Source of the DNA: a virus
IMG/VR virus record: IMGVR_UViG_3300035670_000030
Location: 62,001 to 126,000 of that record
DNA: 64,000 nt
Reading direction: 5' to 3' (one strand)
A model generated the notes under the pieces. That model worked only from the letters and a program-made list of their open reading frames with translations. It was not told the DNA's origin and ran no database searches. Below, piece after piece: positions 24,205 to 64,000 of this stretch. Within the stretch, counting starts at the first letter, position 1. The number at the start of each line of letters is the position of its first letter. The translations under genes and the position numbers were made by a program.

Positions 24205-24210
24205 TTACAC
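24205..24210 (-). promoter_or_regulatory. GTGTAA late-promoter candidate
   Basis: Minus-strand TAAGTGTAACATATATA lies 23 bases before the ATG at 24181, with AAGGAAAAAGG as ribosome site between. It occurs in a 72-base gap. One of seven exact copies before late genes. Confidence 0.5.
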
Positions 24211-24253
24211 TTAAAAAATATTATTATATAATTTTAAAATTAAATATTTAATT

Positions 24254-27133
24254 TTATAAACTACTCGATGACGAAGTACTCGATAATGAGCTACTCGACG
24301 AATTTTCTAATATAATATCGTTATTTTCCGGATCTACCCATAAAGTATTTACGATTAAAGTCTCAGAACTTGACGAAGAACTACTCGATGACGAACTACT
24401 CGACAATGAACTGCTAGATGACGAACTACTCGAGGACGAACTAGAATTAAGATCTAAAAATAATATATTAGATGATCCTTCTGGATCTATCCATAAATTT
24501 GAACTAAATAATGATTCTGGTAAACTAGAACTACTACTACTACTACTTGGGAATCCTGCGCAAGTAAAATAACGATTGTCACATTCGCTATCCCATTCAA
24601 TTTCACAGCAAACAAAATCAGCATCAATAACCTCCTGATAACAAATATTATTAGTGTCAATATAACTAGGAGGAATTACCGTGCAACCAAAAGAAGAACT
24701 AGAACTAGACGTAATATTTTTATTAAATATAAATTTTAAAGATTTGCATCCAGTGATGATATCAAAATTTAAATTAAGATTACCAGTATTACTATAATTT
24801 TCATAAATTGTGTTATAATTATTATTATCTCTTGAAAATTGAAGTATTACTCCAGTTGGAATAAAACCACTCTCAAACTCAATATTAAACCCAGTAAAAT
24901 CAAAAAATTTATTAGTAACAGAGTAACCTAAAAATAAATCATTATTTATATCTCCAGATATTTCTCCATAAGGATAAATATTTTTATTTTCATTAAAAGC
25001 ATACCAAGCTGGATATGATAAAGAATCATTACTATAAAAAACTTCCCCAGAAAAAGAATTATTATTTAAAATTCCCCCTGAAGGATTATTATATCCAGTT
25101 AAATTTGGAGCAACAGGATAAACAGAAAAAAATTCTGAATTATTTATAGTAACTGGTATTCCTGTGTATAACTCAATTTTTCTAAATCCTATTCCACTAC
25201 TTGATTTTTGACCCGTAAAATTATGAGGCCAATTTTGTCCAGACTTAATTTCAATTCTAGCATAATTATAACTAGCATTATTATTAATTAATTGATCGGC
25301 ATTATTACATTCTAGTATTATTTGTTGTGGATATTCATAGAAATTTAAATCTTCACTTCTTAGAAAAAGCCCGTTACCAGACCGACTATCTATTGTTGTC
25401 CATGGGCCTTCTCTATTAATTGATAATTGTAAATCAAAATTATATGGATATTTTAAAGCATTAAAGTCTAACTCAAAAGAATAAAAAGATATTTTACTTT
25501 TTATTGATGGTTCATAAAATTTAAAGAATATTCCTATATCGCCAGTATTTCCAGTTAAATAAAAATATTCATTACCAATAAATGCTTTATCTGACAAAGA
25601 GTTATTTTCAGATGCAAATCCACTTCCACCATATATAAATAACCCCTCTTCTTGATTAATTATCGGATTTAACAAAACGCCAGTAGATTCGTTTATTATT
25701 ATATTGCCTAAATTAATCTCTCCAGAATTATTAGAAATTATATTTCCAAATAAAAGTCCTGTTAGTCCTACAATTTTATTTCCAGATCCAGTATAATTTA
25801 AACCAGTAATATTATTTGATTCCCAAAATAATTTTTTATTATATAAAAAATAATCTCCAGTATAATAACCAGAACCAGTTAAACTTTGTAGTCCTGTTTT
25901 AATATTTATACTATTAAAATAAAAACCTGTTAGATTAATATTTCTTGTTTCTGAAAATAACCCGTACCCATAGACAAAACCAGTTAAGGGTGAATTTAAG
26001 AATCCTGTAGCTGTAATTAAAGTTCCTTCTGGAGAATTTCCTGTTCCACTAGCCCCAAGTAATGGCAAACGATATTGGTAATTAAGTTCTCCCGTGGCAA
26101 ATTGTAGTTCTCTATAGCTTTCTGATAAAATGCCTGTCGGAAATTGGTTATAGTAATCTCTTTCTAAAAAAGAAGTGCCTAAACCTGTTAAAACGCCAGT
26201 AATATAATCAAAACCATATATAAATCCAGATGCGTTTCCACTTATAAAACCACTTGCGGCAAATTCTCCAAGAATTAATTCACCAGTATGCCCAGAAATA
26301 TTTTTTATTAATATTGTTACGTTTAGTGGGTCTGGATATATCGTTCTTAATTCAAAATTATAATATTGCCCAAAAGTAAAATTATCAATAAGACCTGTTC
26401 CGCCAGTATAGCCTGTAAATAAATCAATAAAATAAACTGGCCCTGGAATCGAATCAAAAGAGATAGTATTTTGAATATTCCCAAAATTAGTATTTAAAAA
26501 TAAAGTAGCTAAAGACGGAGTAACTTCATTAATACTAACTTGATCGTCAAATTCTGGTTTTAAAATTATTTGACCAGATTGATTTCCAGATATGATAAAT
26601 AATGGTAAACTTTGGATTTCATAATCTGTATTTTCATTAAATAAAGTGCCGCTAAAAATTCTAAAGGATTTTTGAGATTCATTTTCTAAATTCTTAATAA
26701 CTCCAGTTAAGTTTTGTCCAAAAAAACCACTTTTTGGAAAGATTATATTATAATTTGGCTTATCTCCTTGAATATAAAAATCGTATTCAATTTCAGAGCC
26801 AGTAGTTTTTACATAAAAATAATCATAGTATGAATTGTCCAATTTCGGAGAAAATAAACATACTGGATTTTGATTTATAAAATAATTAATATATCCAGAA
26901 CCAATATTTCCGGAAAAGCTTACTACTTCTCTTGGATTATAAGACCATACATATTTGTTATTAAAATCAAAAATATTTCCATCTTTAAAGGAGAAGATTT
27001 GTAATGTTTTTTCATCTCCTGAAAAACCAATTTCTGAAACACCAGAACAAGTAGAATTTGTAGCATTAAATGAAAAAGAAAATTCATTTTGTGCTGCAAA
27101 ATTTCTATACTGTATTCCAGAAGTAATAATCAT
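24254..27133 (-). CDS. Large Gly/Tyr/Thr-rich tail fibre protein with poly-Ser C-terminus
   Basis: 959 residues. Most of the length is beta-type with very frequent TG, SG and GY turns (for example LTGSGYYTGDYFLYNK), as in fibrous tail proteins. Near residue 840-865 is FVCCEIEWDSECDNRYFTC, a CC..WD..C motif known from surface proteins of Planctomycetes and Myxococcota. The C-terminus alternates long Ser tracts with two copies of a short unit, SNLWIDPEGSSNIL and NTLWVDPENNDIIL. Serine codons mix TCN and AGY. Starts 3 bases after the hub gene; probably a receptor-binding or fibre component. Confidence 0.6.
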   Translation of the reverse strand: MIITSGIQYRNFAAQNEFSFSFNATNSTCSGVSEIGFSGDEKTLQIFSFKDGNIFDFNNKYVWSYNPREVVSFSGNIGSGYINYFINQNPVCLFSPKLDNSYYDYFYVKTTGSEIEYDFYIQGDKPNYNIIFPKSGFFGQNLTGVIKNLENESQKSFRIFSGTLFNENTDYEIQSLPLFIISGNQSGQIILKPEFDDQVSINEVTPSLATLFLNTNFGNIQNTISFDSIPGPVYFIDLFTGYTGGTGLIDNFTFGQYYNFELRTIYPDPLNVTILIKNISGHTGELILGEFAASGFISGNASGFIYGFDYITGVLTGLGTSFLERDYYNQFPTGILSESYRELQFATGELNYQYRLPLLGASGTGNSPEGTLITATGFLNSPLTGFVYGYGLFSETRNINLTGFYFNSINIKTGLQSLTGSGYYTGDYFLYNKKLFWESNNITGLNYTGSGNKIVGLTGLLFGNIISNNSGEINLGNIIINESTGVLLNPIINQEEGLFIYGGSGFASENNSLSDKAFIGNEYFYLTGNTGDIGIFFKFYEPSIKSKISFYSFELDFNALKYPYNFDLQLSINREGPWTTIDSRSGNGLFLRSEDLNFYEYPQQIILECNNADQLINNNASYNYARIEIKSGQNWPHNFTGQKSSSGIGFRKIELYTGIPVTINNSEFFSVYPVAPNLTGYNNPSGGILNNNSFSGEVFYSNDSLSYPAWYAFNENKNIYPYGEISGDINNDLFLGYSVTNKFFDFTGFNIEFESGFIPTGVILQFSRDNNNYNTIYENYSNTGNLNLNFDIITGCKSLKFIFNKNITSSSSSSFGCTVIPPSYIDTNNICYQEVIDADFVCCEIEWDSECDNRYFTCAGFPSSSSSSSSLPESLFSSNLWIDPEGSSNILFLDLNSSSSSSSSSSSSSLSSSSSSSSSSSSSETLIVNTLWVDPENNDIILENSSSSSLSSTSSSSSL
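24262..24540 (-). repeat. Poly-Ser tracts with two LWxDPE units
   Basis: The C-terminal 90 residues of the 959-residue protein contain three Ser tracts (up to 13 in a row) and two copies of a (S/T)-L-W-(I/V)-D-P-E unit. At DNA level TCN and AGY codons alternate, so this is not a simple triplet expansion. Confidence 0.75.
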
Positions 27134-27135
27134 AT

Positions 27136-29541
27136 TTAGGATGCGTTATAAGACGCTCTGTTAAATTGCGATTGAACATATCTAACTGTATTATTAGCTT
27201 TTGATAATTTTGGTGGTTTAGTTGAAAAAGTTGCGGTAGTTGTAAAACCATCAGACGATAAACTTATATCTAAATTTGATAATCCATTTTGAGGGCTAAG
27301 CGTTATATTTGATGGTTCGCCAGCAAATGTATATTTAATTTCTTCTTGCGGTCTAGAACAAACCGCATCTGCTGGTTTAATTAAATTGCTAGGACGTCTC
27401 GATTGAAAAGAATCTTCGTCTGGATCTGTAATATTTTCATTATTAATTCTAATTTCTGCGACATCATTTGCCACACCAGGATTTCCAGCAGACCATAAAA
27501 ATTGTTCCGTTCCTACTGTACTAATTTTATTGATATTAATATTGTATCTGCATACAACCTGTAAACTTCCATCAGATGGAGCGAAAATTCTAAGAGAGCC
27601 GCCTTTAAGAGAAATACTACAAGATTTTGCTGTTTTTGTTATCAAACCACTAACATAATCATCAGGGTTAGTCGTATCATTCGTAGTTCCCCCCGCTGCC
27701 TCTATAGCCTTATCTCTTGCAATTTCTTCGGCAGCTTTACAGGAACCTTTTTCTAAACTTTCATCATATTGAGGGCAATTTTTTTTACCAGATTGAATAT
27801 TAGCATTTTTCTGATCATAATATGTTTGCTCAAGAGGGTTTAATCCCCTACTAGTTGAAGATCTAAATCCAATTTTATTTCTTACAAATTTTTCACTATT
27901 TGGAAAAATTATTAAAGTATTTACTTTTTTTGATTGTTCGCCAGTAAGTATTTTTGCAGTAACTAGCGCATCTGAGATTCCAGACTCTTTTAAATCAATA
28001 TGAATAGGCGCACAATTTTGAATTTCATTTGCTAAATTTTCATAACCAAGAGCTTCTTGCGCGCTAGTTTCGTCATGGCTCATGGTACCACCCCTATCGA
28101 TAATTCTTCTACCTGCAAAATTTTCACTACCTTGTTCTTGGACTTGCCCCTCTGGATCTACAGAAATTTCTACTTCTATTGTATAATTAGAATTACAATA
28201 AAAAAATGAACCAGAAGAATCTGAAGCTCGATAATATCTACCATGATATTGTAATAATTTTTGTTCAATTTCATGCCATTTATCAGCAATTGTCGGATCT
28301 CTGTTAATAAAATTAAAGTCATAGTTAGGAAGATCTTTTGCATCAAAAGCTTCTAAGTCAGAAATCATATCCTGAAAACCAAATTTTTTAAGAGCGCTTA
28401 TAATTTTTAGTTTATTAGTTGTAATACCACTATTTATTTTATATCCAAGAGCTTCCCAATGTTCATTTTGAAAACTGTATAAATCTCTTAAACTTCTTGA
28501 TACATAACCTAAGAAAGCTGCGTGAACAAAATTGTCTTGGTTTCTTTTCCCGCCCCATCTTCCTTTGTCTGCATTGATAGATTGGGGCGCACCAACTTTA
28601 TTTATAAAATAACTAATTGGATATGGAGATAACGAATATAAAACAACTCTCGATTTTGAAGCACTCAGAGCTTTAACTGCAGATCTCGGCATTGCCGTAT
28701 ATCCAATACCATATTGTCTAAATGTTCCCTGCATAGAAACAGATTTTTCTTTTGAAATAATGCTTGGGTGAGAAATATCTGGAATGGTAGCAACGCCAAC
28801 AGAAACATCAAAAAATCTAAGCGTATTTGTTGAAAAATCCCAATAATAATCAAAACCTAGATCTGAGCACCAACTACTTAAAACTTCTCTTAGAGTTCCT
28901 TCATGAGTTGCTTTCCATTCATTATTATTTGGTGCAGATGACATATTTACAGGAATTTGGCCTTTTAAATCATTAAAAGTATAATAAGTATCTGGTATAT
29001 CACATACAGAATTTGCGAATTTTTCATGCCCAACCAAAATAACATTTCCAACTTTTGTAGATCCCAAAGAATAAGATTTAGATGGAACTGTTATTCTACC
29101 TAATCTTTTCTCTACAAATTCCGTATAAGGAAAACCTGATAATTTTGTATTTCTTCTCGGTACTAATATAGACTCGTCACTAAAATCAAAAGTTTTATTT
29201 TTATTTTGCAGCGTCCCATTTTTTCCCAACAACCCGCGTTTCCATAATAAAACATAGTATCTATCTAATATTATACTATTATCAATAAGAGTTACTTGTA
29301 ATGTTTTTTCTCCAGCAGATTCTCGAAAATTATAAGACCAAACAATTCCATTAAATTTAAAATTTCCAAAAGTTACTGAAGTTTGAGAATTTAAAGCTGG
29401 AGTTGAATAAATACCATTTTCATTCACAATATCTATTGTTAATTTAGATGGTTCAGCAGAGTATCCAATACTCATATTTAGTCCATATATTACCCCGCCA
29501 TAATTTGGCCCTGATATTGTTGGTACATTTTTTATTGCCAT
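27136..29541 (-). CDS. Putative tail hub / tip protein
   Basis: 801 residues. The N-terminus (SAEPSKLTIDIVNENGIY, then TFGNFKFNGIVWSYNFRESAGEKTLQVTLID) resembles the first beta domain of phage hub proteins. About 200-245 has WCSDLGFDYYWDFSTNTLRFFD, typical of hub/late-control-type modules where a short peptidase- or ligand-binding groove is built. It has the expected position after the two distal tail proteins and before the fibres. Preceded by a GTGTAA box and AAAGGAAAAAGG. No lytic motif was found. Assignment rests on these motifs and gene order. Confidence 0.6.
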   Translation of the reverse strand: MAIKNVPTISGPNYGGVIYGLNMSIGYSAEPSKLTIDIVNENGIYSTPALNSQTSVTFGNFKFNGIVWSYNFRESAGEKTLQVTLIDNSIILDRYYVLLWKRGLLGKNGTLQNKNKTFDFSDESILVPRRNTKLSGFPYTEFVEKRLGRITVPSKSYSLGSTKVGNVILVGHEKFANSVCDIPDTYYTFNDLKGQIPVNMSSAPNNNEWKATHEGTLREVLSSWCSDLGFDYYWDFSTNTLRFFDVSVGVATIPDISHPSIISKEKSVSMQGTFRQYGIGYTAMPRSAVKALSASKSRVVLYSLSPYPISYFINKVGAPQSINADKGRWGGKRNQDNFVHAAFLGYVSRSLRDLYSFQNEHWEALGYKINSGITTNKLKIISALKKFGFQDMISDLEAFDAKDLPNYDFNFINRDPTIADKWHEIEQKLLQYHGRYYRASDSSGSFFYCNSNYTIEVEISVDPEGQVQEQGSENFAGRRIIDRGGTMSHDETSAQEALGYENLANEIQNCAPIHIDLKESGISDALVTAKILTGEQSKKVNTLIIFPNSEKFVRNKIGFRSSTSRGLNPLEQTYYDQKNANIQSGKKNCPQYDESLEKGSCKAAEEIARDKAIEAAGGTTNDTTNPDDYVSGLITKTAKSCSISLKGGSLRIFAPSDGSLQVVCRYNININKISTVGTEQFLWSAGNPGVANDVAEIRINNENITDPDEDSFQSRRPSNLIKPADAVCSRPQEEIKYTFAGEPSNITLSPQNGLSNLDISLSSDGFTTTATFSTKPPKLSKANNTVRYVQSQFNRASYNAS

Positions 29542-29570
29542 TTCCTTTTTCCTTTATATTCCTATTTAAT

Positions 29571-29576
29571 TTACAC
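29571..29576 (-). promoter_or_regulatory. GTGTAA late-promoter candidate
   Basis: Minus-strand TTTTGTGTAAATTAAATA lies 29 bases before the ATG at 29541; it includes the stop codon of the upstream gene. AAAGGAAAAAGG separates it from the ATG. Confidence 0.45.
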
Positions 29577-31538
29577 AAAAAAATCGTCTGTATTATTATA
29601 AATTACTTCTTTAAATACGCTTGGTTCTTTAAAAACTCCAGAAATTAAATCATAATTACTATTTTCAATATAATTGCTATTAATTTTTTGTTTAATACCA
29701 TTATAATAAACTTGCGAACAGCCATGATTAAATGGGTAATTAAATTTTAATGTTCCAGAATTTCCTGATACATAATTATTATAATGGTTTATTTCTCTAA
29801 CCATAAAATAATTTAAATCATTAGAAGGATTTACGTTTAGAAAATATAAATTCATACCAGTTTCAATCCTCTCAACTGAGTAGTCAATACCACTAATTAA
29901 TTTTTGACCATTTTTAAAAACAAAAGCATCAACACCACTGTTTGATGATTGATAAAAAATTTCTCCAAATATATTACCTGTTCTTTGTGAAAAACTTGAT
30001 TTTCCACTAAAGTAGTCGTAAAATAAAAAATCTTTTACACCAAAAAATTTATTTGTTTCAACTGTTGTCCCAGTTATAAAATAATCAAATTTTGGACTTC
30101 GTATTATTTCATATCCGCTTGGAATAAGTTCATAACCATCATCAATTAGCGCTTGTCCATTACCAAACATTAAAACTTCATTTGGGCCAAATTCTCTATC
30201 GATATAAAAATAATTTTCATTTAAAACATCGTATCCTAAATTTATATTATAATCTAAAACTTTACTTTGATTTTTTTCTGCATATATTTCTACTATATCA
30301 TTATCTATTGGCTCTACACTAGCAGGGCCAACCGCTGTTAATAAACTAATTTCTTTATAAGATAATGAGGCCAAGTAGTTATCATCATATGAGTACAAAA
30401 CATCGCCAGTGTTATTAAAATAAGAATCACATATTAAACCAGTTACAAACACATTTTCGATACCAGTGTCTATTCCTATTAATTCGATCTCTGTAAATCC
30501 TGTCACGTATGTAATTCCAGTTAATGGTACCGTCACTAAAACTTCGTTATATATTTCTCCAGATAAAGCAATTTGTTCTACAATATTAACACTGTTTCCA
30601 CAGTTATCAATGTAAGATCCCAAAAATTTACCACTATAGCCAGTAATACCAGTATATACATAACCAGAATTAATTTGTTGATATCCAGTGATACCAGTAA
30701 TACCACTTTCGAATCCTGAAACTAAAACCCCAGTAACAGTAGAATAAGAATACCCAGATCCAGATAAAAATCCTGTCGTATAACAATATTCTTCTAAATC
30801 GCCCTCAAAACCCGTAGGTTCTGAAAAAAATCCCCTAGCTAAAACATTTGCATAAACATAAGGTATATTATTAAATATATATAACCTATCCATATAACCA
30901 CTAAAATTTGAAGGATTATTAGAATCCCAAGCGTATCCATTTGGATTTCCTCCTACATATAAATTAGAACTATTTATGAAATTGTTTTGATAAATTTCAA
31001 ATTCTTGAGATGAAAATTGAAAATTATTATTATTAAAATGTCCTAGAGTAATAACAGAATTTGTTCGATTGATGACCAAAATATTTTTATCTGACAGTAT
31101 ACCAGTATATGTAAAAGTAAATGATCCTTCTATATTATTCCAATATTTTAGATATAATTTATTGGCATCATTAATTCCGATATTAAATCCAGAATAAGTA
31201 TTAAACGAATTTCCAGTGACTGAAGACAATAGAACTTCATTGCCCATTCTTAGTTTTTCATATGAAATCAAAATAGTAGATTCATTTAAAGAATAGTCTT
31301 TACTTAATTTAAAATAATTTGTCGTGTTAAAATTTCCACTCCCAGAATAATCAAAAAACCCATTCCCACCGATAGTGTTTAGAATCCCAGATGAAGCGCC
31401 AGTTGCCCACGGATCACCATATACTATATCAGTATTCGTTGTGGGGTTAGATCTGAATGAAAATGCTGTGACAATATCTGCGTAGTTTATGTTTAACGCA
31501 TCTACTAAAAAATTCATTCCTGAAATTATATTTACCAT
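29571..31538 (-). CDS. Tail protein with LamG-like N-terminal domain
   Basis: ATG 31538 gives 655 residues (start MVNIISGMNF) and leaves 4 bases after the upstream gene; a start at 31565 would overlap it. About 10-230 reads as a concanavalin/LamG-like domain: YFKLSKDYSLNESTILISYE, then NGYAWDSNNPSNFSGYMDRLYIFNN. The remainder is Gly/Thr-rich with TGITGYSGKFLG and similar repeats. Probably a tail-tip or fibre protein binding a surface glycan; function inferred. Confidence 0.6.
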   Translation of the reverse strand: MVNIISGMNFLVDALNINYADIVTAFSFRSNPTTNTDIVYGDPWATGASSGILNTIGGNGFFDYSGSGNFNTTNYFKLSKDYSLNESTILISYEKLRMGNEVLLSSVTGNSFNTYSGFNIGINDANKLYLKYWNNIEGSFTFTYTGILSDKNILVINRTNSVITLGHFNNNNFQFSSQEFEIYQNNFINSSNLYVGGNPNGYAWDSNNPSNFSGYMDRLYIFNNIPYVYANVLARGFFSEPTGFEGDLEEYCYTTGFLSGSGYSYSTVTGVLVSGFESGITGITGYQQINSGYVYTGITGYSGKFLGSYIDNCGNSVNIVEQIALSGEIYNEVLVTVPLTGITYVTGFTEIELIGIDTGIENVFVTGLICDSYFNNTGDVLYSYDDNYLASLSYKEISLLTAVGPASVEPIDNDIVEIYAEKNQSKVLDYNINLGYDVLNENYFYIDREFGPNEVLMFGNGQALIDDGYELIPSGYEIIRSPKFDYFITGTTVETNKFFGVKDFLFYDYFSGKSSFSQRTGNIFGEIFYQSSNSGVDAFVFKNGQKLISGIDYSVERIETGMNLYFLNVNPSNDLNYFMVREINHYNNYVSGNSGTLKFNYPFNHGCSQVYYNGIKQKINSNYIENSNYDLISGVFKEPSVFKEVIYNNTDDFFV

Positions 31539-31542
31539 ATTA

Positions 31543-33150
31543 TTATGAAATAAGTGGACCATCAAAAGTCCATGTCTCGTTTATTGTTACAGTTTTAATA
31601 TCATTATTCTTTGAAATATTTCTATCTTCTAATAATAAATTCGCTCTACCATTAGTATAGTTAGATTTCATTCTATTTACTTCACTAATTGCTGCGCTTT
31701 CCGCTGTAGAAATATTTTTATTCATCCTTGCGGTTGCTGTGACAGAAATTTGTATTCGGGACCTATTCGCGCATCTTAAATTTTGAACATTATGTTCTCT
31801 TGGCGTGAAAGCGGATGTATTTGGAACATGAATAAAAATAGACGGATTAAAAGTAATACTAGAACTGATATTTAAAATGTCAGCACTAAATACAACTGCT
31901 TTATTAGAATACTGGGCATTATAAGTAATTTGGGCATTAAATCTATCAAAACTTATAGATTCAGTTAAAGGAACAGGATTTAAATCAGAAGCTCCAAATT
32001 CTGATAAATATTCTTCTGATGCTAATGAGTATGGAAAGAATCTATTTTGATAAAATTCATTAACTTTTTGCCATTTCGTTGCTAAATCTCCATATTTACA
32101 AGAAATTGTAGAACTTAAATTAACCGTTCGGATACATTTTAAAGAATCTTCATTAATATCAACAGTATAATTATTAATTAATTGATCTGAAAAATCGTTA
32201 TTATATGAAGAACTAAAGCTTAATCTGTTTTCTTCCGATACCTCTTCTAATGATTGTGATATAGGACGATTAGAAATAGGTTCTTTAAAAACTCTACTAC
32301 AAATTTGACTTGCGATACTATATAAATCTAAACTGTTATAATCATTTCTTAACACAGTAAGATTATTGCCTTGTAAATCGCCATTAATATTTACAGTAAC
32401 AATACCATCATCAATTCCAGAATTTAAATCAACAGAATAATTTAAAATAGAATTGTTAGGATTTTCTAAGTTTGTTGATTTTTTGTAAGTTCCTTCCCAC
32501 GAATAAGTTCCATTAAATCTATCTACGACTTCTTGGGTTGAATATAAAAGAAATGGGCGAGATGCTACAGCATTTCTATTTTTTATTAAAATAGGTGAAA
32601 TTCCATTTATATTACCAGTTTTAGAGAGAACCCATTCTTTTGCATTTTCTATTGCATTTTTATTTTTAGCAATTATACCTTTTGCGGAAATAGAGTGGAT
32701 TACATTTAAAATATCCCCCTCTTCTTCATCAAAAGAAAAAGTTTCTTCTGGCTCAACAATGCCATAATAATCTTTAAATAAACCAGAATCATAAACAGTG
32801 ATATCTATAGAATAAGGTAATAAACCATACCAAGAAGACTGCTCAATATTAATTGAATTTATTACTGCATTAGCACCTGTATATAAACCAGACCCATTTT
32901 CAGTTATTAATAATGTTTTATAATTTTCATTAAAATTTTCATGTAATTTCTGGGCAGCTTCTGCTAATAAATTATAAGAATTAGAACCCAAAAATTTACC
33001 AGTTAATTGACCTTCTAAAGTAATATTAGTAACTTGATTCCATTTTGTTCCAAAATCAATATAGTCATTAGAAATAGAAACAAATGGCACTGTTGAGATA
33101 CCACTAAAAGCATCCTTATTGTTATATAAAATTTTTACATTGTCACTCAT
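31543..33150 (-). CDS. Distal tail structural protein (paralogue A)
   Basis: 535 residues. The segments TNITLEGQLTGKF, INSINIEQSSWYGLLPYSIDITVYDSG, and SFDRFNAQITYNAQYSN have counterparts in the neighbouring 545-residue protein (TISIRGYILDL, VKSFSVDSGNWVRYTQYEATIEV, VNKFNGTINFTITFDND). Thus the pair arose by duplication. Position just after the tape measure fits distal-tail or tip proteins. No enzyme motif. Confidence 0.6.
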   Translation of the reverse strand: MSDNVKILYNNKDAFSGISTVPFVSISNDYIDFGTKWNQVTNITLEGQLTGKFLGSNSYNLLAEAAQKLHENFNENYKTLLITENGSGLYTGANAVINSINIEQSSWYGLLPYSIDITVYDSGLFKDYYGIVEPEETFSFDEEEGDILNVIHSISAKGIIAKNKNAIENAKEWVLSKTGNINGISPILIKNRNAVASRPFLLYSTQEVVDRFNGTYSWEGTYKKSTNLENPNNSILNYSVDLNSGIDDGIVTVNINGDLQGNNLTVLRNDYNSLDLYSIASQICSRVFKEPISNRPISQSLEEVSEENRLSFSSSYNNDFSDQLINNYTVDINEDSLKCIRTVNLSSTISCKYGDLATKWQKVNEFYQNRFFPYSLASEEYLSEFGASDLNPVPLTESISFDRFNAQITYNAQYSNKAVVFSADILNISSSITFNPSIFIHVPNTSAFTPREHNVQNLRCANRSRIQISVTATARMNKNISTAESAAISEVNRMKSNYTNGRANLLLEDRNISKNNDIKTVTINETWTFDGPLIS

Positions 33151-33151
33151 T

Positions 33152-34789: not shown

Positions 34790-34794
34790 TTAAA

Positions 34795-40797: not shown

Positions 40798-40827
40798 TAT
40801 ATTCCTTAATCCTTTATGTACAATTAA

Positions 40828-40833
40828 TTACAC
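40828..40833 (-). promoter_or_regulatory. GTGTAA late-promoter candidate
   Basis: Minus-strand AAATGTGTAATTAATTGT, 30 bases before the tape measure ATG, with AAAGGATTAAGG in between. It lies within the 39-base gap. Confidence 0.5.
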
Positions 40834-40836
40834 ATT

Positions 40837-41859: not shown

Positions 41860-41860
41860 A

Positions 41861-42667: not shown

Positions 42668-42676
42668 ATATTTATA

Positions 42677-42901
42677 TTATTTATCCTTTAATTTAAAATC
42701 AAAATTATCTAGTTCTTGTTCTATATTTCTATAACAATTATTGCCATAATCAAGAACACGCTTTCTTAATCTTTGGAATTCATCTTCTGTAATTTTGTCT
42801 TCGCTTTTAAGGTCTTCAAGAGTATATAAAAAACTTAAATAGAGTTTTTTAACGTCTCTATAAACGAATCCTTTAACAAGATCATTTAAATCAATATTCA
42901 T
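42677..42901 (-). CDS. Small acidic/helical protein upstream of chaperone gene
   Basis: 74 residues, helical: DLNDLVKGFVYRDVKKLYLSFLYTLEDLKSE. Sits after the tail-tube terminator with its own GTGTAA box and AAAGGATG site. A chaperone-cassette member by position; no family recognised. Confidence 0.55.
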   Translation of the reverse strand: MNIDLNDLVKGFVYRDVKKLYLSFLYTLEDLKSEDKITEDEFQRLRKRVLDYGNNCYRNIEQELDNFDFKLKDK

Positions 42902-42929
42902 CCTTTACAAACCTTTTGCCTATTTTAAA

Positions 42930-42935
42930 TTACAC
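42930..42935 (-). promoter_or_regulatory. GTGTAA late-promoter candidate
   Basis: Minus-strand ATGAAGTGTAATTTAAAATA lies 28 bases before the ATG at 42901, immediately downstream of the tail-tube terminator. Its place right after a terminator strengthens the case that it restarts transcription. Confidence 0.6.
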
Positions 42936-42940
42936 TTCAT

Positions 42941-42970
42941 AAAAAAAATGGGCACCCGAAGGTGCCCATT
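42941..42970 (-). terminator. Strong rho-independent terminator after the tail tube gene
   Basis: Perfect 10-base stem AATGGGCACC / GGTGCCCATT with a 4-base loop, followed on the minus strand by eight T (42948 to 42941). It lies 24 bases after the tail-tube stop. GC-rich stem in an AT-rich genome. Confidence 0.9.
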
Positions 42971-42993
42971 AAGTTTTATTTTTAATAAAATAA

Positions 42994-44097: not shown

Positions 44098-44148
44098 ACT
44101 TATAATTACAGCTCATTTTTATTAAAGACACTAGTTATTTATTATTAA

Positions 44149-46321: not shown

Positions 46322-46322
46322 A

Positions 46323-46856: not shown

Positions 46857-46864
46857 ATACTATT

Positions 46865-46870
46865 TTACAC
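46865..46870 (-). promoter_or_regulatory. GTGTAA late-promoter candidate
   Basis: Minus-strand TTTTTGTGTAAAATAGTATG, only 8 bases before the GTG at 46856. The spacing is shorter than for the other copies. Confidence 0.4.
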
Positions 46871-46876
46871 AAAAAA

Positions 46877-47254: not shown

Positions 47255-47300
47255 CTTAAATATTATTACATTTAATGTAAAAATAATCTAATTTTTTTAT

Positions 47301-47338
47301 AAAAAAAGGGCCACCCTTTCGGATGGCCCTAATTTTTT
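47301..47338 (-). terminator. Strong rho-independent terminator after the major capsid gene
   Basis: Stem of 10 pairs (one G-T) between 47307-47316 and 47321-47330 with a GAAA-type tetraloop on the minus strand, followed by a T-run (47307 to 47301). A T-run also follows on the plus strand, so it may be bidirectional. It lies 23 bases after the capsid stop. Confidence 0.9.
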
Positions 47339-47353
47339 AAACTATTTGTTTAA

Positions 47354-48478: not shown

Positions 48479-48502
48479 ATTTTTCTTTCTTTATTTATTT
48501 TA

Positions 48503-49039: not shown

Positions 49040-49058
49040 AATTTTATTTTCTTTCTAT

Positions 49059-50933: not shown

Positions 50934-50951
50934 TTTATTATTATAGATTAC

Positions 50952-50957
50952 TTACAC
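50952..50957 (-). promoter_or_regulatory. GTGTAA late-promoter candidate
   Basis: Minus-strand AATAAGTGTAAGTAATCTATAAT, then 6 bases, then ATG 50933. The GTGTAA and TATAAT boxes are 6 bases apart. Confidence 0.5.
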
Positions 50958-50976
50958 TTATTTTTATAATTTATTA

Positions 50977-51675
50977 TTATAATCTTGCAAATTGCCAATG
51001 TTGATAATCCATATTTCTATAACGACCTAAACTAATCCCGCCCTCTTCTTCGACAAATTTCCAATAGTTATTATAATCTGGATGGGCCATTTTTGCACGA
51101 TCTTTTCCCCATTTTAATTGATTTCGATCAGGATCGATATCTACAGCACATCCCCAGGAATGAGTGCTAAAAGCATTGCCGCCACGCATTTTTCTAACAT
51201 TCAAAATACCACCAAATAAATTTAAACCGAGCCTATCAATTTCTTTTTCTCCATATGTTTTTAATACTTTTTCAAAAACATTATAAAAACTTTTTGCGCA
51301 TTTTTCATGACATGTAAATTTTTTAATAGTTATATTTTTAGCCCAAGCAAGTTTCATGGGATATGGTATTTCTAAACTAGTTTGATTTTCTCCAACTGGG
51401 CCATAAAAATTAACCATACTATTATAGTCTTGTTTTGGCCAGCGTTGAGAAATCGGTGTATTTTCACTAACAGTAGTAATAAATTTCCAAGTTTTTGGAC
51501 CAACAATTCCATCAGGTTTAAGACCATTTTTAGTTTGAAATTTTAAAGTTTCTCTTTCTGTCATTGGGCCGAATGCTCCATCAACATATGGTATTTTATA
51601 ACCAGCGCTTTGTAAAAACAACTGCCATTGTTTTACATCTTGTCCAAAATCACCTTTTTTTAAAACTTTATTCAT
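50977..51675 (-). CDS. Endolysin: peptidoglycan-binding plus M15 peptidase
   Basis: 232 residues. Residues 1-66 are a PG_binding_1 domain (KKGDFGQDVKQWQLFLQSAGY, DGAFGPMTERETLKFQ, DGIVGPKTW). The catalytic half is VanY/M15-type: STHSWGCAVDIDPDRN with zinc ligands H172 and D179, and DYQHWQF with H226. It should cleave the peptide cross-bridge of peptidoglycan at lysis. No signal peptide, so it needs the holin. Overlaps the holin-like gene by 8 bases. Confidence 0.88.
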   Translation of the reverse strand: MNKVLKKGDFGQDVKQWQLFLQSAGYKIPYVDGAFGPMTERETLKFQTKNGLKPDGIVGPKTWKFITTVSENTPISQRWPKQDYNSMVNFYGPVGENQTSLEIPYPMKLAWAKNITIKKFTCHEKCAKSFYNVFEKVLKTYGEKEIDRLGLNLFGGILNVRKMRGGNAFSTHSWGCAVDIDPDRNQLKWGKDRAKMAHPDYNNYWKFVEEEGGISLGRYRNMDYQHWQFARL

Positions 51676-52138: not shown

Positions 52139-52139
52139 A

Positions 52140-52655: not shown

Positions 52656-52927
52656 ATAATTGGTTCTTTAATTAATTTAGAATTAGATTCTTCTTCTATT
52701 TGTTCAAGAAGCCTCTCTAATCTATCTGCTAATGTTAAAGCTTTCTCAACTTTTTCTCCAACAATAGTATTTGATTCTCCAGCTTTATCTAATTCACTTT
52801 TTGTTTTTTCAAGTGACTGAATAACTTCTTCGGTATTTGCAATTGGTGGTCCAGATTTTTTATGCGCTGGATCTAAGCATACACATCCAGTAAAAAATAG
52901 AATAAATATTAACGATAAATACTTCAT
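52652..52927 (-). CDS. Small lipoprotein (outer-spanin-like)
   Basis: ATG 52927 gives 91 residues starting MKYLSLIFILFFTGC, a lipobox with Cys at position 15; a start at 52942 adds five residues without improving it. After the Cys comes a short polar linker and a helical, Glu-rich region. Overlaps the coiled-coil membrane gene by 4 bases. Together they resemble an o-spanin/i-spanin pair, which joins inner and outer membranes for lysis. Confidence 0.6.
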   Translation of the reverse strand: MKYLSLIFILFFTGCVCLDPAHKKSGPPIANTEEVIQSLEKTKSELDKAGESNTIVGEKVEKALTLADRLERLLEQIEEESNSKLIKEPII

Positions 52928-52960
52928 ATTATATATGTACACACAAAATAAATTATAAAA

Positions 52961-55177
52961 TTAATTTATCCACAATTGAGAAGGATAAGATTTTGTTTTT
53001 ATTGCGCCTTGGGCGCTTGCGCAACTATTAACACAAAGTATTACATAATATGTATGTAAGCCCTGTCCAATTCCACATTGTGCAAACGTTAAGCCTGGAA
53101 TAATTTGTCTTTCGCCTCCGCCAGCTAATAATGCTTTATAATAAGGTTTGCCAATATTAGCTAAACTTCCACACCTACTTGGATCAGCTAAATAAGAACC
53201 TTCAATTGCTGCACCACATAAAGAAGTTGGGTAAATCATATAACTACTTGGTGTATAGTTACAGTCGAAATTCGCAGGCACAATGTCACTACTATTAAAA
53301 GATAAATCTGGAACTCCAATACAAACCGTCCCACCGCCGTCGTTTATTAAAGTAGCAGTCCCACCACATTCAGGACATATAGCTAAGGTAGATTGAGTTA
53401 ATGTTGGTGAACTCCGACTAGGGCTACTAGTAACATTTGCGGATCTTACGCGTATATAATAAGTAGTGTTGGCAGATAACCCAGTTACAATTTCACTATT
53501 TGTATAGATAGCTTTATCATTATAGCCAACTACAAAATTTGTAAAGCTAGAATTCGTAGCAATATCAAGACGATATTGATTCGCATTTGGGACAACATTC
53601 CAACTTAATGTAAATCCATTAGAAGTGACATTAGAACTTGTTGGCTGATTAGGCATTGCAGTCGCAGTCACTCTACCAATATATTGTGAATTATTACTTA
53701 TACCATCTTCATTCGCCGCACGAACTCTTATCCAGTATGTTGTAAAAGCTGATAAATTATTTACAATTTGACTTGTTCCATTTACTGTAAGATTATTATA
53801 ACCAATCACATAATTTGTAAAATTATTATCCGTAGCTACATCAAGACGATAATTTATTGCTGTTGGAACGCTATTCCAATTTGCCGTAAAACTTATATCA
53901 TTTACATTAGTTGTTGTGGGTTGACTTGGGGCAGCTGGAATTGCAATACTTTTTCGACTAATCGCTATATCCATCCAATCTCTTAATGAATCTCTTTGTG
54001 ACCAAGTGTTTCCATAATCATTAGATCCGTATAATTCTGATACACCATTAGCGATTTGGTATTTTCCATCTCCATTCATAGCTATATTGTACCATTTTTT
54101 TGGAAAATCTAATATTGGACCTTTTGGAGCCCAAGAGTTTTGGAGACCATAATTATTTGAAACCCATATTCTTCCATTATCTGCTACATCAACAATACTT
54201 TGATATTTACCATCATTACTTACGGATACATCATGCATAGCTGAATTTGGTGAAATTGATAAAATATTAAAAGAAATACCTGAATTATTAGAAATAACAA
54301 CTCCTCCTTCGGTAAAGAAAGCGGATAAAGTTATGTATTTACCATCCGCGCTCATACCAACACTAGTATATGTGCCAGGTCCGATATTCGCGCCAGACCA
54401 TGTTTCCCCATAATCTTTTGAAATATATAATCCGGAAAATAACCCTTCAGAACCTGGGCCTCCAACATATGTATTTGTAACCTGAAATTTACCATCAGAA
54501 GAAACACAAAGATTTACTAAATTACCATTATTTGGTACTGAAAATTTTGGATTCCATGTTTCTCCATAATCATTAGAAACATAAATATTATTAGGAAGAA
54601 GATCTTCATATGTAAAATTATTCCTAGATACTATGGCTGTTTGGTATTTACCATTACTACTCATCGCTACACGATACCATGCTCTCGGAGTGCTTATTTT
54701 TTCAATAAAATTTTGACCAGAATTGTTAGATACAAATATACCACCACTATTAACAACAGCCGTTTGATATTTAGCATCATGACTAATAGCTACCCCACGC
54801 CACCCTGATACTTCTCCAGTCGCTACCCATGTCTGTCCATAATCTTTTGATAAATAAATTCTACTTTCAGCTTGTTTACTTGCTGCTATTTGGTATTTTC
54901 CATCATTCAATATATAATCATCATCTAATGGTCTCTCACCCCATGTGTAATTATAATTTGTATTAGAAACTATATTTGTACTTGAATTTGGCTCCCAATT
55001 AGCAATTACATTTCCACTTGTGTAAATAACTTTAAAATTTGATAAAGTTTTGCCAAAAGGATTATCAAAAAATTGCCAAAAATCCCCCCCAGGGAAAGGC
55101 CAAAGTAAGGTATTCCCCAAATATAAGCGGCTAACAATTCCAGTACCTAGATAAAAATTATCAGCTTCTTGCAACAT
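52961..55177 (-). CDS. Tail fibre: BNR/Asp-box repeats plus fibronectin III domains
   Basis: 738 residues. About 80-420 holds repeated SNDYGETW, SKDYGQTW, SNNSGQNF Asp-box units with SSDGKFQ/SNDGKYQ strands, a beta-propeller of the sialidase/BNR type. Two fibronectin III domains follow (about 425-515 and 515-600), with matching TTTNVNDISFTANWNSVP and TSSNVTSNGFTLSWNVVP starts. The end is Cys-rich (CPECGG). It likely binds surface carbohydrate; no catalytic residues are identifiable. Confidence 0.7.
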   Translation of the reverse strand: MLQEADNFYLGTGIVSRLYLGNTLLWPFPGGDFWQFFDNPFGKTLSNFKVIYTSGNVIANWEPNSSTNIVSNTNYNYTWGERPLDDDYILNDGKYQIAASKQAESRIYLSKDYGQTWVATGEVSGWRGVAISHDAKYQTAVVNSGGIFVSNNSGQNFIEKISTPRAWYRVAMSSNGKYQTAIVSRNNFTYEDLLPNNIYVSNDYGETWNPKFSVPNNGNLVNLCVSSDGKFQVTNTYVGGPGSEGLFSGLYISKDYGETWSGANIGPGTYTSVGMSADGKYITLSAFFTEGGVVISNNSGISFNILSISPNSAMHDVSVSNDGKYQSIVDVADNGRIWVSNNYGLQNSWAPKGPILDFPKKWYNIAMNGDGKYQIANGVSELYGSNDYGNTWSQRDSLRDWMDIAISRKSIAIPAAPSQPTTTNVNDISFTANWNSVPTAINYRLDVATDNNFTNYVIGYNNLTVNGTSQIVNNLSAFTTYWIRVRAANEDGISNNSQYIGRVTATAMPNQPTSSNVTSNGFTLSWNVVPNANQYRLDIATNSSFTNFVVGYNDKAIYTNSEIVTGLSANTTYYIRVRSANVTSSPSRSSPTLTQSTLAICPECGGTATLINDGGGTVCIGVPDLSFNSSDIVPANFDCNYTPSSYMIYPTSLCGAAIEGSYLADPSRCGSLANIGKPYYKALLAGGGERQIIPGLTFAQCGIGQGLHTYYVILCVNSCASAQGAIKTKSYPSQLWIN

Positions 55178-55178
55178 A

Positions 55179-57083
55179 TCAATCGACTATTACATAAAAA
55201 GTAGCTGGATCTTTTACTGATAGCGCATTATATTCAGCCTGTGTTAGCTTAATCATATTATTAATAGTACCGTTACTTCTAACTGCTTCACCGCTTAAAA
55301 GAACGCCAGTACCCTGAACATTTGGCCTATTTTCAAAAGAAACGGTTCCGAGTAGCGATACAAGCACGTTTGATGGTCCGAACTGGCTAAAATATACTAT
55401 TGGTTGATTATTACTAGCCTTTATCACCAAAGAATCTGTACCATCCTGGTTATCTTCTGAAGTAAAATATGGAACTGTATTAATCTCAAGCGATGGTATT
55501 ATCTGAATTCTTTCAAATGATTTAATACCACTAATATTTTGATCACCAGTCGTATAAACTACATTATTTAAAGATACATCCGCAGCTTCTCCCTGTAATA
55601 AAACACCAGTCCCATTAACAGTTGGACGAGAAATAAAATTTTTAGTACCACTAATAGTTTGTTCTCCAGTATTATATACTAAATTATTACCATAAAATTC
55701 TTCTGCAATAATATTACCTTCACTTTCAACATTACTTTGAGTGGTTAAAGATGCTTTTGATATATATATACCGAAATCGTTAACTCCTATGCATTGAACT
55801 CTACCATCACTAGACATGCCAACGCTATATGAAAGGCCTGCTGCTGGTAATGGTGAATTAATAATCGTGTCACCATAATTGTTGGAAGTATAAAGGCTAG
55901 AAAGGGCAGCAAATAATAAAATTTTACCATTAGATGAGTTTGCCATATCAAATGCGGAAGTAGTATTATTTATTATTTGCCAATTTTGCCCATAATCGAT
56001 AGATTTGGCAAATATACCTCCCACGGTTGTTACAGCTACTTGAATTCTACCATCATTAGACATTTTAATGGATCGCCAAGCTCTACTCGTGTCTTTATTA
56101 GTCCAAAAATTACCGTAATCATATGAAACAGCAAGTGACTGACTATCTCTACAAGCAGCTTGAATCCTTCCATCGCTAGACATGCTGATACCATTCCATT
56201 TAATAGATCCAATAGAGTCGAATGTTTTTTGAACCCATGTGTTTCCATAATCTGTGGATACATAAATATTGCCATTATATTGAACGGCGGTTTGAATTCT
56301 GCCATCACTAGACATAGATACGTAGGGAGCCCCAACTGAGAACGTGTTAAGACGATTTACCCATGTATTTCCATAATCTGTCGATACAAAAAGTCTACTT
56401 TCCGTAGGACTACTTAATACAGCTCCAATTGTTATAAATTTTCCATCAACTGACATTGCTATTGATAAAATATTTGGAGATCTAGTAGAACTTAAGCCTA
56501 GTTCGAATTTTGTAGACCATGTTTTCCCATAGTCTTCAGATATATTTATAATTGAGTTTTTAGAGATGCTGTTTTGAGTATATTGAATTGAAGTCGCTAT
56601 AAGATTACCTTTGCTAGATATTGCTATGGCATTATATATTTTATTTGTACCAGATGTATTTGCTGCAGGTAATGCTAGTTCCCATCCCGTTCCAATTGTT
56701 GATGTTTTTAAATCCCACGGATTTTCTTCAATTCGAGTTCTTCCTAAATATAAGCTATTATTATTTTGGCCTATTAAAATATTTCCAGCTGAAAATGAGC
56801 CACCACCTGAAGGCTCATTCGTTATATTTTTAATCCCACTAATTAATTGATTTCCAGTTGTATAAACAACATTACTTGGAGCAACAGAATTAAATTCAAC
56901 CCATTGATTACCAGTATTATAATAATAATGTTTATTTTCTCCAGTTACATATACAATTATTCCAGCATAAGCTTTATTACTTGTGACTAATGCATTTCGT
57001 TCAGTTTGATTAGAAACGACAATTCTTGAATCTAATGGTACTGATGATGCTAAATCAAAATTTGTAGATACTTGTATTCCCAT
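55179..57083 (-). CDS. Tail fibre: BNR/Asp-box propeller with TGNQxISGIK repeats
   Basis: 634 residues. The N-terminal STNFDLASSVPLDSRIVVSN region resembles a fibre base. VVYTTGNQLISGIK, VYNTGEQTISGTK and VVYTTGDQNISGIK are three copies of a phage-fibre repeat. Asp boxes (STDYGNTW, SYDYGNFW) with SSDGRIQ strands form a propeller. The C-terminus LTQAEYNALSVKDPATFYVIVD is a typical fibre/baseplate end. Two bases from its neighbour; likely host recognition. Confidence 0.7.
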   Translation of the reverse strand: MGIQVSTNFDLASSVPLDSRIVVSNQTERNALVTSNKAYAGIIVYVTGENKHYYYNTGNQWVEFNSVAPSNVVYTTGNQLISGIKNITNEPSGGGSFSAGNILIGQNNNSLYLGRTRIEENPWDLKTSTIGTGWELALPAANTSGTNKIYNAIAISSKGNLIATSIQYTQNSISKNSIINISEDYGKTWSTKFELGLSSTRSPNILSIAMSVDGKFITIGAVLSSPTESRLFVSTDYGNTWVNRLNTFSVGAPYVSMSSDGRIQTAVQYNGNIYVSTDYGNTWVQKTFDSIGSIKWNGISMSSDGRIQAACRDSQSLAVSYDYGNFWTNKDTSRAWRSIKMSNDGRIQVAVTTVGGIFAKSIDYGQNWQIINNTTSAFDMANSSNGKILLFAALSSLYTSNNYGDTIINSPLPAAGLSYSVGMSSDGRVQCIGVNDFGIYISKASLTTQSNVESEGNIIAEEFYGNNLVYNTGEQTISGTKNFISRPTVNGTGVLLQGEAADVSLNNVVYTTGDQNISGIKSFERIQIIPSLEINTVPYFTSEDNQDGTDSLVIKASNNQPIVYFSQFGPSNVLVSLLGTVSFENRPNVQGTGVLLSGEAVRSNGTINNMIKLTQAEYNALSVKDPATFYVIVD

Positions 57084-57086
57084 AAA

Positions 57087-58085
57087 TTAAAAATTAAATC
57101 TAATTTGAAAATTAGAGTTTGTTGAATTGACTAAAGATTTATATACTAAATATGGATGTGTAGACCCATTTACTAAATTTAATAACATTCCCGAACCAGT
57201 AAAACTAGATGTTATATTAAAATTATTTTGATCTATTATTGAAGTTAAAGGTCCCCATCCCGAAGGATACGCTAACCAAAAACGGCTATTAACTGTATTA
57301 TATGTTAATGTAATAGGGTTTGGTTTACTTGAAACAACTTTAGTTCTTGGTGCGCCAGTAATTTGAGAAGCTGTTAAATTATCTTGTCCAGAGCCCCAGT
57401 AATAAGGAGCTTCAAAAATAATACTTCGCGTGTTACTTTGTATTTCAATTGGGCTGTTATTTTGATTTACGCCGCTAGCTTTTATATAAACATTATTAGA
57501 TGTATTACTTAAATTTATACCAACTGACCAATTAAAATTTTGAACTACTGGAATAAGCAGCGGTAAACGTCCAACATTATTTACATAGCCCTCTACATTT
57601 GTAAATGTATTTAAATTTAAACTACCAGTATTAATTGTACCTACAAAATTTATATTAGTAACCGTTCTTCCCAATTCTTGTACAGCAAAACTATTTAGAG
57701 AAATAGATCCAGAAACAAATGGATAAAAAACATTGTTAAGGAAAGAAACAACATCATTGCCACCAGGCGTTATTCCTTGAAAACCCTGAACATCAGCAGT
57801 GATTTCCCTATTTCCATCGAATAATGTTGAACCACCTAATTCGCCAGTTGTGGCCAGGCCAGACCCATTAAAAAATGGTCTATTATCAAATGTTTTTATT
57901 CCACTAATTGTCTGATTACCAGTTGTGTAAACAACATTTTGTCCAGTTAATTCAACTTCTGGATTGAATTCACTTAATATAAAATCTAACTCACCAAATG
58001 TAACAAAATATCCAGAACCGTAGCCGCTAACTAAATCGCCTACGTCTGGATGTAATTGATTTTTTCTGATTAAACTTTTCGCCAT
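57087..58085 (-). CDS. Tail fibre protein with TGNQTISGIK repeat
   Basis: 332 residues. NVVYTTGNQTISGIKTFDNRPFFNGSGLATTGELGG shares the repeat of the adjacent fibre; the rest is beta-type and Asn/Ser-rich. Reads as a fibre or fibre-connector of the same cassette. Directly after the portal gene. Confidence 0.6.
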   Translation of the reverse strand: MAKSLIRKNQLHPDVGDLVSGYGSGYFVTFGELDFILSEFNPEVELTGQNVVYTTGNQTISGIKTFDNRPFFNGSGLATTGELGGSTLFDGNREITADVQGFQGITPGGNDVVSFLNNVFYPFVSGSISLNSFAVQELGRTVTNINFVGTINTGSLNLNTFTNVEGYVNNVGRLPLLIPVVQNFNWSVGINLSNTSNNVYIKASGVNQNNSPIEIQSNTRSIIFEAPYYWGSGQDNLTASQITGAPRTKVVSSKPNPITLTYNTVNSRFWLAYPSGWGPLTSIIDQNNFNITSSFTGSGMLLNLVNGSTHPYLVYKSLVNSTNSNFQIRFNF

Positions 58086-58086
58086 A

Positions 58087-59991
58087 TTAATCTAATTTGC
58101 TGTGATATAATAAAATTGCTGTTTTATAATCTAAACCATACTCAGCCGCAATTTCATTAATCTTTTCCATATTGACATTTAATTGAACTGGCGCATTAAG
58201 ATAATCATTAATTTTGTTAACCCAGTCTTTCGGATTTTCATTTGTAGCAATTGTTTCTGCAATTGTTTGAATTATTTCTTTTTGTTCTTTTGTTAATCTT
58301 TTACGATTATATTTTTCTTTTAAAGTGGTTTCTACGGCTTCAACTAAATTATCAAATTTAACTAAATTTTTTGCAACTAGATCAGCATTAATTTTAGGTT
58401 TAATTTCTGAAGCTTGAACAGTTGGAGCCGTTCTTGGTGCTTTTGTTGTTTGTGGCGTTCCAGTTCCAGTTGGACGACCAGATTGTTGCTGTTGAGGTTT
58501 ATTTAAAAGTGGTTGATATAAACCTTCTTCCTGTAATTGTTTAAAATCTTTTTGAGATTCTACACTTTCATCTGGAAGTGGTAAACGTCCGGTTTCAATT
58601 GCTGTAATACCTTCTTCTGGAGTTAATACGCCAAGCTCAATTAAACGAGAATAAATTCTTGTTAAATTCATATCATTTTTAAAGTCTGCATCTTTAAAAC
58701 GAGCTACTGGTAAATTTTTAAATCCAAGATTTTTACCAATTTTTTTCATTTCTGGTAAAAGAAAATCATTCATAAAAGTTTCTCTGGCATGTTTTAAACG
58801 AGAAAGAAATACTTCTATTTTAGTATTTGTATTTGCATATTTTTCTTCACCAAAGAGTACATTATTTAAACCATAACGAATATCACGATCTACAACTTCA
58901 TATTTCTTAGGATCTAGAATATTACTAATTTCCGGAATGATAAATTTAATATTAGTTGTATAGTCAGTAACAAGAATACGTCCAACACTTTCATTTTCAA
59001 AAATTTTTCTTAATGTACTGATTTGTTCTTTGGTTGGCATACCAACTTCATCATTTCCCATTGTAACCAAAAGGACTGCTTGCTGTATGGTACGACTAAT
59101 TGCCATATCCATATTTTTAAGTTCTTGCTTCCAGTTAATATCTTCGAGAACTGGGAAGCCCATTGGGACGCTAAATGGTTCATAATCTTGTTTTTTATAA
59201 AATACAGGAACAAATCTTTCAGGATCTAATTCAAATATCATATATTGATTAGATTGGGTAATATTACTTGATGTTTTTAAATCTTTTACATTCTTAACCC
59301 TTTCTGCAAGTTGCTGGTCTTGTTCATTAGTAGGATTAGTTAAAACTTGCATTTCAAAATCATTTAAAACTTTAACATATTGAGGGGTAATAAATGATGC
59401 AGAGCCAATAGCTTGAACATCTGCTGGATTTAAAATAATATATCTAACTGGAATTTCACCAGTACGAGCCTCTGTGGTAATTAAATCCGTAAGCACTCGC
59501 ATATCTTGTTTTGTAAATTGCGCATTTAATTTGTAAAGAAATACATTACCGCTACGGAAAAACTCACGGAAAAACATATCTTGTAATTTCCATAAATTAA
59601 CACGATCCCCCCAAGCTTGGAAGAATTTGCGAGATTGCTCATTGCCACCAGTAAAATATATAGGAGAGCAACTAAATTCGGTCATTAAATCAATGGTATT
59701 TCTAAAAATAGAAAAATTGTAATAAGCTTTTTGACACAAGATAATAGTATCTTTTATACTTATATTAGAAGTATATTTACCATAACCGCCACCATAAATA
59801 AAAGGAATAACGCCACCTTCAATATTTTTATATTTATCAGTTCTAGAAATTGTAGAAGCTCTATTCCTTCTTACGGAAGTATTGACTTCGCCGCGACTGG
59901 CCTTGACTTCTATATTATCTTTTGATTTTATAGATCCTTCAATTACCTGTGGCTCTGGGAATTTAATATTTTTATTATTATTTCGTGCCAT
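58087..59991 (-). CDS. Portal protein
   Basis: 634 residues. IYGGGYGKYTSNISIKDTIILCQKAYYNFSIFRNTIDLMTEF, WKLQDMFFREFFRSGNVFLYKL, and ILNPADVQAIGSASF are the wing and clip features of phage portals. VTMGNDEVGMPTKEQISTLRKIF, then NTNTKIEVFLSRLKHARETFMNDFLLPEMKKIG is the stem/clip part. A Gln/Pro/Thr linker (about 505-540) precedes a helical tail. It forms the dodecameric vertex through which DNA enters. Has a GTGTAA box. Confidence 0.85.
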   Translation of the reverse strand: MARNNNKNIKFPEPQVIEGSIKSKDNIEVKASRGEVNTSVRRNRASTISRTDKYKNIEGGVIPFIYGGGYGKYTSNISIKDTIILCQKAYYNFSIFRNTIDLMTEFSCSPIYFTGGNEQSRKFFQAWGDRVNLWKLQDMFFREFFRSGNVFLYKLNAQFTKQDMRVLTDLITTEARTGEIPVRYIILNPADVQAIGSASFITPQYVKVLNDFEMQVLTNPTNEQDQQLAERVKNVKDLKTSSNITQSNQYMIFELDPERFVPVFYKKQDYEPFSVPMGFPVLEDINWKQELKNMDMAISRTIQQAVLLVTMGNDEVGMPTKEQISTLRKIFENESVGRILVTDYTTNIKFIIPEISNILDPKKYEVVDRDIRYGLNNVLFGEEKYANTNTKIEVFLSRLKHARETFMNDFLLPEMKKIGKNLGFKNLPVARFKDADFKNDMNLTRIYSRLIELGVLTPEEGITAIETGRLPLPDESVESQKDFKQLQEEGLYQPLLNKPQQQQSGRPTGTGTPQTTKAPRTAPTVQASEIKPKINADLVAKNLVKFDNLVEAVETTLKEKYNRKRLTKEQKEIIQTIAETIATNENPKDWVNKINDYLNAPVQLNVNMEKINEIAAEYGLDYKTAILLYHSKLD

Positions 59992-60010
59992 AATTTATTA
60001 TAACAGTTTA

Positions 60011-60016
60011 TTACAC
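60011..60016 (-). promoter_or_regulatory. GTGTAA late-promoter candidate
   Basis: Minus-strand TTTTAGTGTAATAAACTG, then TATAAT, then ATG 59991. Lies 19 bases before the portal ATG, in a 41-base gap. Confidence 0.5.
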
Positions 60017-63978: not shown

Positions 63979-63984
63979 TATAAT

Positions 63985-63990: not shown

Positions 63991-64000
63991 CTTACTACTT

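Follow-up and report, generated by a model that had tools for sequence, protein, structure and literature searches.

What does the hexamer GTGTAA do in front of the late genes of this virus, and which protein reads it? The DNA analysed here, referred to as the window, is a stretch of 64,000 nucleotides from a virus record of 143,730 bases, in which it spans positions 62001-126000. For record-wide analysis, the remainder of the record was joined with the window. The source is a tailed phage with a terminase large subunit and an endolysin; for most virion proteins, a PHROG match is absent. IMG/VR contains hundreds of relatives, 360 of which were confirmed via terminase. No close relative was found in the deposited phage collection, and GTDB genomes, queried with sigA (see below) and TerL in search of a host, gave no match. 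The record carries eleven tRNA genes, none of them inside the window. Its right end (~137000-143730) consists of small ORFs separated by long gaps and includes GC-rich stretches, e.g. CGGCGGGGCGCGCC, compared to 30% GC elsewhere.

The original prediction placed exact TTACAC, i.e. GTGTAA on the minus strand, 8-30 nt before seven gene starts, and the near-matches CTGTAA, ATGTAA and GTGTAC before three others. Both sets of sites are present (Table 1). Counting both strands, the window holds 25 GTGTAA copies; six of them reach into its 1,092 intergenic bases, where 0.33 would be expected from the coding rate. This means, the box is not equally frequent inside genes (P=1.3e-6). The copy at 29571 shares bases with the TAA stop codon of the preceding ORF and is therefore missed by a strict intergenic count. 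Upstream of the genes of the whole record, GTGTAA was found 21 times in sense orientation versus 0.51 expected (P ~8e-27) and five times in antisense orientation, and ranks first of all hexamers. It also ranks first in 80 relatives (264 versus 4.6 expected) and in 1,000 distinct upstream regions (251 versus 8.5 expected), counts that come from related phages and not from independent events. In two deep relatives, G007 and G009, it is the first or second most enriched upstream hexamer. The 1,000 distinct upstream regions revealed that A or C is mildly tolerated at the first position and T at the last, with ATGTAA as a minor variant. Not every copy belongs to this class: The one at record position 24109 is no promoter but part of a tRNA gene.

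Table 1. Boxes, terminators and genes discussed in the text (window coordinates unless marked as record; distances refer to the gene start)
Feature	Position	Strand	Remarks
sigA, sigma-70 family, 198 aa as called	12322..12918	-	PHROG 351, E=2.9e-10
sigA early promoter, host-sigma70 type	12919..12948	-	TTGACT-N17-TATATG, 7 nt before ATG
GTGTAA box	24205..24210	-	23 nt before 24181; distance of 23 kept in one relative
GTGTAA box	29571..29576	-	29 nt before 29541; kept in 2/5 orthologs
GTGTAA box	40828..40833	-	30 nt before 40797; kept in 5/6 orthologs
GTGTAA box	42930..42935	-	28 nt before 42901; kept in 7/7 orthologs
Intrinsic terminator	42947..42970	-	directly upstream of the 42930 box
CTGTAA variant box	44106..44111	-	8 nt before 44097
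GTGTAA box	46865..46870	-	8 nt before 46856; kept in 8/8 distinct upstreams
ATGTAA variant (weak)	47266..47271	-	11 nt before 47254, after terminator
Intrinsic terminator	47307..47330	-	upstream of the ATGTAA variant
GTGTAA box	50952..50957	-	18 nt before 50933; kept in 6/8 distinct upstreams
Endolysin	50977-51675		
GTGTAC variant box	52937..52942	-	9 nt before 52927
GTGTAA box	60011..60016	-	19 nt before 59991; kept in 24/36 distinct upstreams
Terminase large subunit	60033..61934	-	operon starts with the box at record 127120
sigB 3' end	63978..64000	-	remainder beyond window
sigB, sigma-70 family, 236 aa	record 125978-126688	-	PHROG 1740, E=2.3e-5

Could chance or the composition of A/T-rich intergenic DNA account for these numbers? 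The GC content of the record is only 30.6%. However, the word contains two G, outranks all A/T-only hexamers, is strand-specific and persists as its flanks change. The enrichment in the record and in the 80 relatives together with the conservation at orthologs refutes this reading, to which we assign practically no weight.

In four whole relatives, orthologous genes are preceded by the box with an unchanged or almost unchanged spacing. The gene at record positions 120087-121991 has a box 19 nt upstream in all four (67-94% identity), the gene at 108323-108856 has one 8 nt upstream, likewise in four of four (50-88% identity). In general, spacing is retained where orthologs share 50-94% identity and in some cases of 43-49%, and the box stays while the surrounding sequence changes. 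In G007 and G009, whose orthologs of window gene 42677-42901 are 43-49% identical, GTGTAA precedes these genes shortly after a T-tract. Among the boxes in the window, the one at 40828 precedes the start of a gene for a 2000 aa protein. The variants were also traced. In three relatives, the CTGTAA site persists as NTGTAAT, located 8-9 nt ahead of ATG. The 12 distinct upstream regions compared at the GTGTAC site all show GTGTA followed by C, T or A, and one distant relative carries exact GTGTAA there. The ATGTAA site is the weakest-supported of the three near-matches.

Which genes are concerned was determined by sorting promoter classes according to gene function, with PhoH and one protease left unassigned. 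On both strands, units with a GTGTAA box comprise those of terminase, tail, endolysin and further virion genes. Units with host-type TTGAC...TAnnnT promoters comprise DNA polymerase, primase, exonuclease, RNR and UvsX. Such host-type early promoters occur in upstream regions throughout the record and also in four relatives (G001-G004). The box-free upstream regions yielded no third promoter class but only TTGACA/TTGACT as well as tRNA and GC-rich words. The GTGTAC variant at 52937 heads a gene run whose last member is endolysin. It is likely the head of the endolysin unit, as is the box at record 127120 for the terminase unit; the closest 'early' hit to terminase and the closest 'late' hit to endolysin are both ORF-internal and probably arose by chance. 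Directly before terminase and in a common operon with it, the window encodes an ERCC4-type nuclease (61922-62854) with an N-terminal C2H2-zinc-finger-like stretch. At record 26397-26428, two divergent GTGTAA boxes are located within a 32-bp gap between oppositely directed genes.

Together, the position of the box, the function of the downstream genes and the conservation at orthologs strongly support the predicted phage late promoter, where 'late' is defined by gene function. Further support comes from the near-exclusion with host-type promoters and from the location after terminators: Both terminators in Table 1 are followed by a box or a variant. The first had been described as a tail-tube terminator. 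The terminator itself is present, whereas the 'tail tube' identity of the preceding gene found no backing in PHROGs or Pfam. The proposed scope of seven late genes proved too narrow. Those sites hold, but the box is used on both strands, throughout the record and also in phages that are far more distant. GTGTAA very probably marks late-gene starts in this phage and in many distant uncultivated relatives.

The box consists of a near-strict TGTA core followed by A/T, and the next two bases are A/T as well, mostly T. Position-by-position composition around 175 distinct box sites displayed no conserved -35 block. The box precedes 4% of the genes with a same-strand gap below 12 nt compared to 20-25% of those with a larger gap. 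Its distance from the start codon varies from 8 to more than 30 nt between genes and is fixed at each ortholog. In five whole records, the distance from the end of GTGTAA plus one A/T to ATG is 7 nt or more with a single exception and peaks at 7-9 nt; a second group of boxes is located 15-33 nt before the start codon. Gene starts were called mechanically, and some spacings are blurred as a result. For the early promoter (TTGACN, 17-nt spacer, TAnnnT), the same five records contain 37 cases in which exactly 6 nt separate its end from ATG. This is the distance expected if the A of ATG is the first transcribed base, and judging from their promoters, early mRNAs look leaderless. The sharp lower limit at boxes about 8 nt from the start implies that these late mRNAs should be leaderless or nearly so. 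By analogy with the start sites of phage phiEco32 (see below), their leaders would comprise about 0-3 nt. The box at 46865 has a spacing of this presumably leaderless type.

The proximity to start codons and the overall scarcity of SD-like sequences in these phages might also suggest that the box acts in translation, either as start-codon context or as ribosome site. Yet it is nearly absent before operon-internal genes, it follows terminators, and its distance from the start differs between genes but is constant for each ortholog. Based on placement at unit starts and on this spacing, the ribosome-site reading was rejected; a role in translation is very improbable.

If the box is a late promoter, who reads it? 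The phage encodes two divergent sigma-70-family proteins, sigA and sigB. The ATG start of sigA is likely at 12912. A sigA profile matches SigA region 2 (E=6e-5), and the protein combines region 2 similarity with weak region 4 similarity; Pfam Sigma70_r2 and r4 remained below cut-off. A TTGAC element is located upstream of sigA in 12 of 12 close relatives. The sigB gene is situated behind the GTGTAA box at record 127120 in the operon leading to terminase. Between its region-2-like and C-terminal parts, sigB contains four invariant cysteines (92, 95, 104 and 114), possibly a zinc site. Relatives of sigA with 29-39% identity accompany GTGTAA (106 versus 4.2 expected). Relatives of sigB with 46-51% identity accompany GTGTAA, GTGTAT or, before one gene, GTGTAG. 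In a more distant sigB clade, few boxes are found at many loci, and sigB is not clearly behind a box. Furthermore, five records with a distant sigA have a length of at least 118 kb, and all five encode sigB as well. An attempt to separate both proteins by co-occurrence failed, as both are encoded in every long record; the reverse test with sigB contigs used short fragments. Their joint occurrence in related phages suggests that the box is linked to the sigA/sigB pair and not to one member. The predicted sigma-like reader is plausible in that both families accompany the box in distant phages, although with two such proteins the box can be assigned to neither. If a phage sigma reads it, sigB may be the main reader, sigA is a somewhat weaker candidate for this role, and a share of both appears less likely.

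A virus-made sigma is most likely the reader of the late box. The box, its enrichment, position and conservation, the gene partition and the two sigma genes were all read from the DNA. From these, we infer promoter activity, start site, timing and the sigma involved, and the following mechanism is proposed. Host sigma70 would first read the TTGAC-type early promoters, among them that of sigA. The core of host RNA polymerase with a phage sigma (sigA, sigB or both) would then melt GTGTAA as a single -10-like element of the late promoters without -35 contact. RNA would start ~6-8 nt after the box, so that a start codon 8-11 nt away would result in a leader of about 0-5 nt and a start codon 15-33 nt away in a short leader, sometimes with the SD-like GGAAAAAGG. 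The promoters opened in this way would include the head of the sigB-terminase operon, thereby creating a forward or self-amplifying loop. We assign a probability of about 0.78 to the reading that GTGTAA is a one-element late promoter used by a phage sigma on host core polymerase. Several observations count against it: A single phage-specific box class was found for two phage sigmas, sigA has region-4-like sequence whereas the late promoters lack a -35, and boxes are few at many loci of the more distant sigB clade.

Alternatively, a phage activator or a modified host holoenzyme of the MotA/AsiA type might act at the box, with host sigma70 melting the DNA and the phage sigmas acting elsewhere. 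TGTAAT differs by one base from the sigma70 -10 box TATAAT, T4 middle promoters use such a switch, and the assignment of the box to sigma factors is based on co-occurrence. T4 middle promoters, however, retain their -10 and carry a separate upstream activator box, whereas here the -10-like position itself is altered and no upstream block is conserved. In addition, the box is tracked by distant families of both phage sigmas. This reading is considered unlikely. With a phage sigma as the preferred reader, an undescribed two-sigma cascade can tentatively be envisaged for deep, widespread uncultivated phages: sigA, expressed from an early promoter, and sigB, expressed from a GTGTAA promoter, would act on one common -10 box that contains G, and most mRNAs of either class, early or late, would start at or a few nt from the start codon.

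The box offers a promoter code that can be read from DNA for a large phage group known solely from sequence. From DNA alone, early units can be distinguished from late ones, which provides hints on the role of genes without family match. As a compact in vitro system, the box plus both sigma genes lends itself to two questions: do two sigmas serve one box, and how does a sigma read a G in a -10 element? Furthermore, the spacing predicts widespread leaderless translation, which constrains the possible hosts.

In the literature searched, most subscription journals being outside its scope, nothing relevant was found on GTGTAA as phage promoter. The closest likeness is to phiEco32 (Kuravirus), whose middle and late promoters contain tAATGTAtA read by the phage sigma gp36, with transcription starting 6-8 bp downstream of the element (PMC8948821). 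Both phages share a single element with a TGTA core and without -35, located before middle and late genes in phiEco32, and host sigma70 for early genes. They differ in the bases flanking the core, are unrelated, and two sigmas are encoded here. Neither sigA nor sigB matched gp36 above shuffled controls, so that homology could at best be remote. With no such match and only the TGTA core in common, placement of the phage in the gp36 system was rejected.

A second parallel is T4, with a late box of TATAAATA. T4 late promoters likewise have one -10-like A/T-rich element without -35 conservation before virion genes and use a small divergent phage sigma. They depend on gp55, gp33 and gp45 (PMC2988020). 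In contrast to gp55 (PHROG 234), sigA and sigB match other PHROGs, and neither matched gp55 above shuffled controls, which leaves room for very remote homology. A gp55 homolog that would place the phage in the T4 late system was not found. A bacterial beta clamp is absent from the record, and a search for the T4-type sliding clamp gp45 (PF02916), the activator in that system, was run without a working control and gave no match.

Phage 7-11 also employs a phage sigma (SaPh711_gp47) for late genes, but its late promoter is bipartite (GTAAtg-(16)-aCTA). The cultured Synechococcus phage S-CBWM1 (139 kb) is similarly large, and two sigma factors are annotated in it. Its gp055 shows remote similarity to the sigA family, whereas gp045 does not match the sigB profile. 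GTGTAA is not enriched in S-CBWM1, where GG(G)TAAAAT leads the upstream words (GGTAAAA 13 versus 0.8), perhaps an unreported phage-specific promoter. With only a remote sigma and a different motif, S-CBWM1 was rejected as cultured relative. AR9 and phiKZ are large phages with short phage-specific late motifs as well, but these motifs (AACA-(6N)-TA/G and TATG) are read by phage-encoded multisubunit polymerases, and AR9 leaders comprise 26-491 nt. Like phage-sigma, single-element late promoters as a functional class, the box has one element without -35, precedes virion but not replication units and occurs in a phage that encodes a sigma. Judged by its sequence features, it would represent a phage-sigma late promoter with a box of its own and with sigmas that are unrelated or very remotely related to gp36 and gp55.
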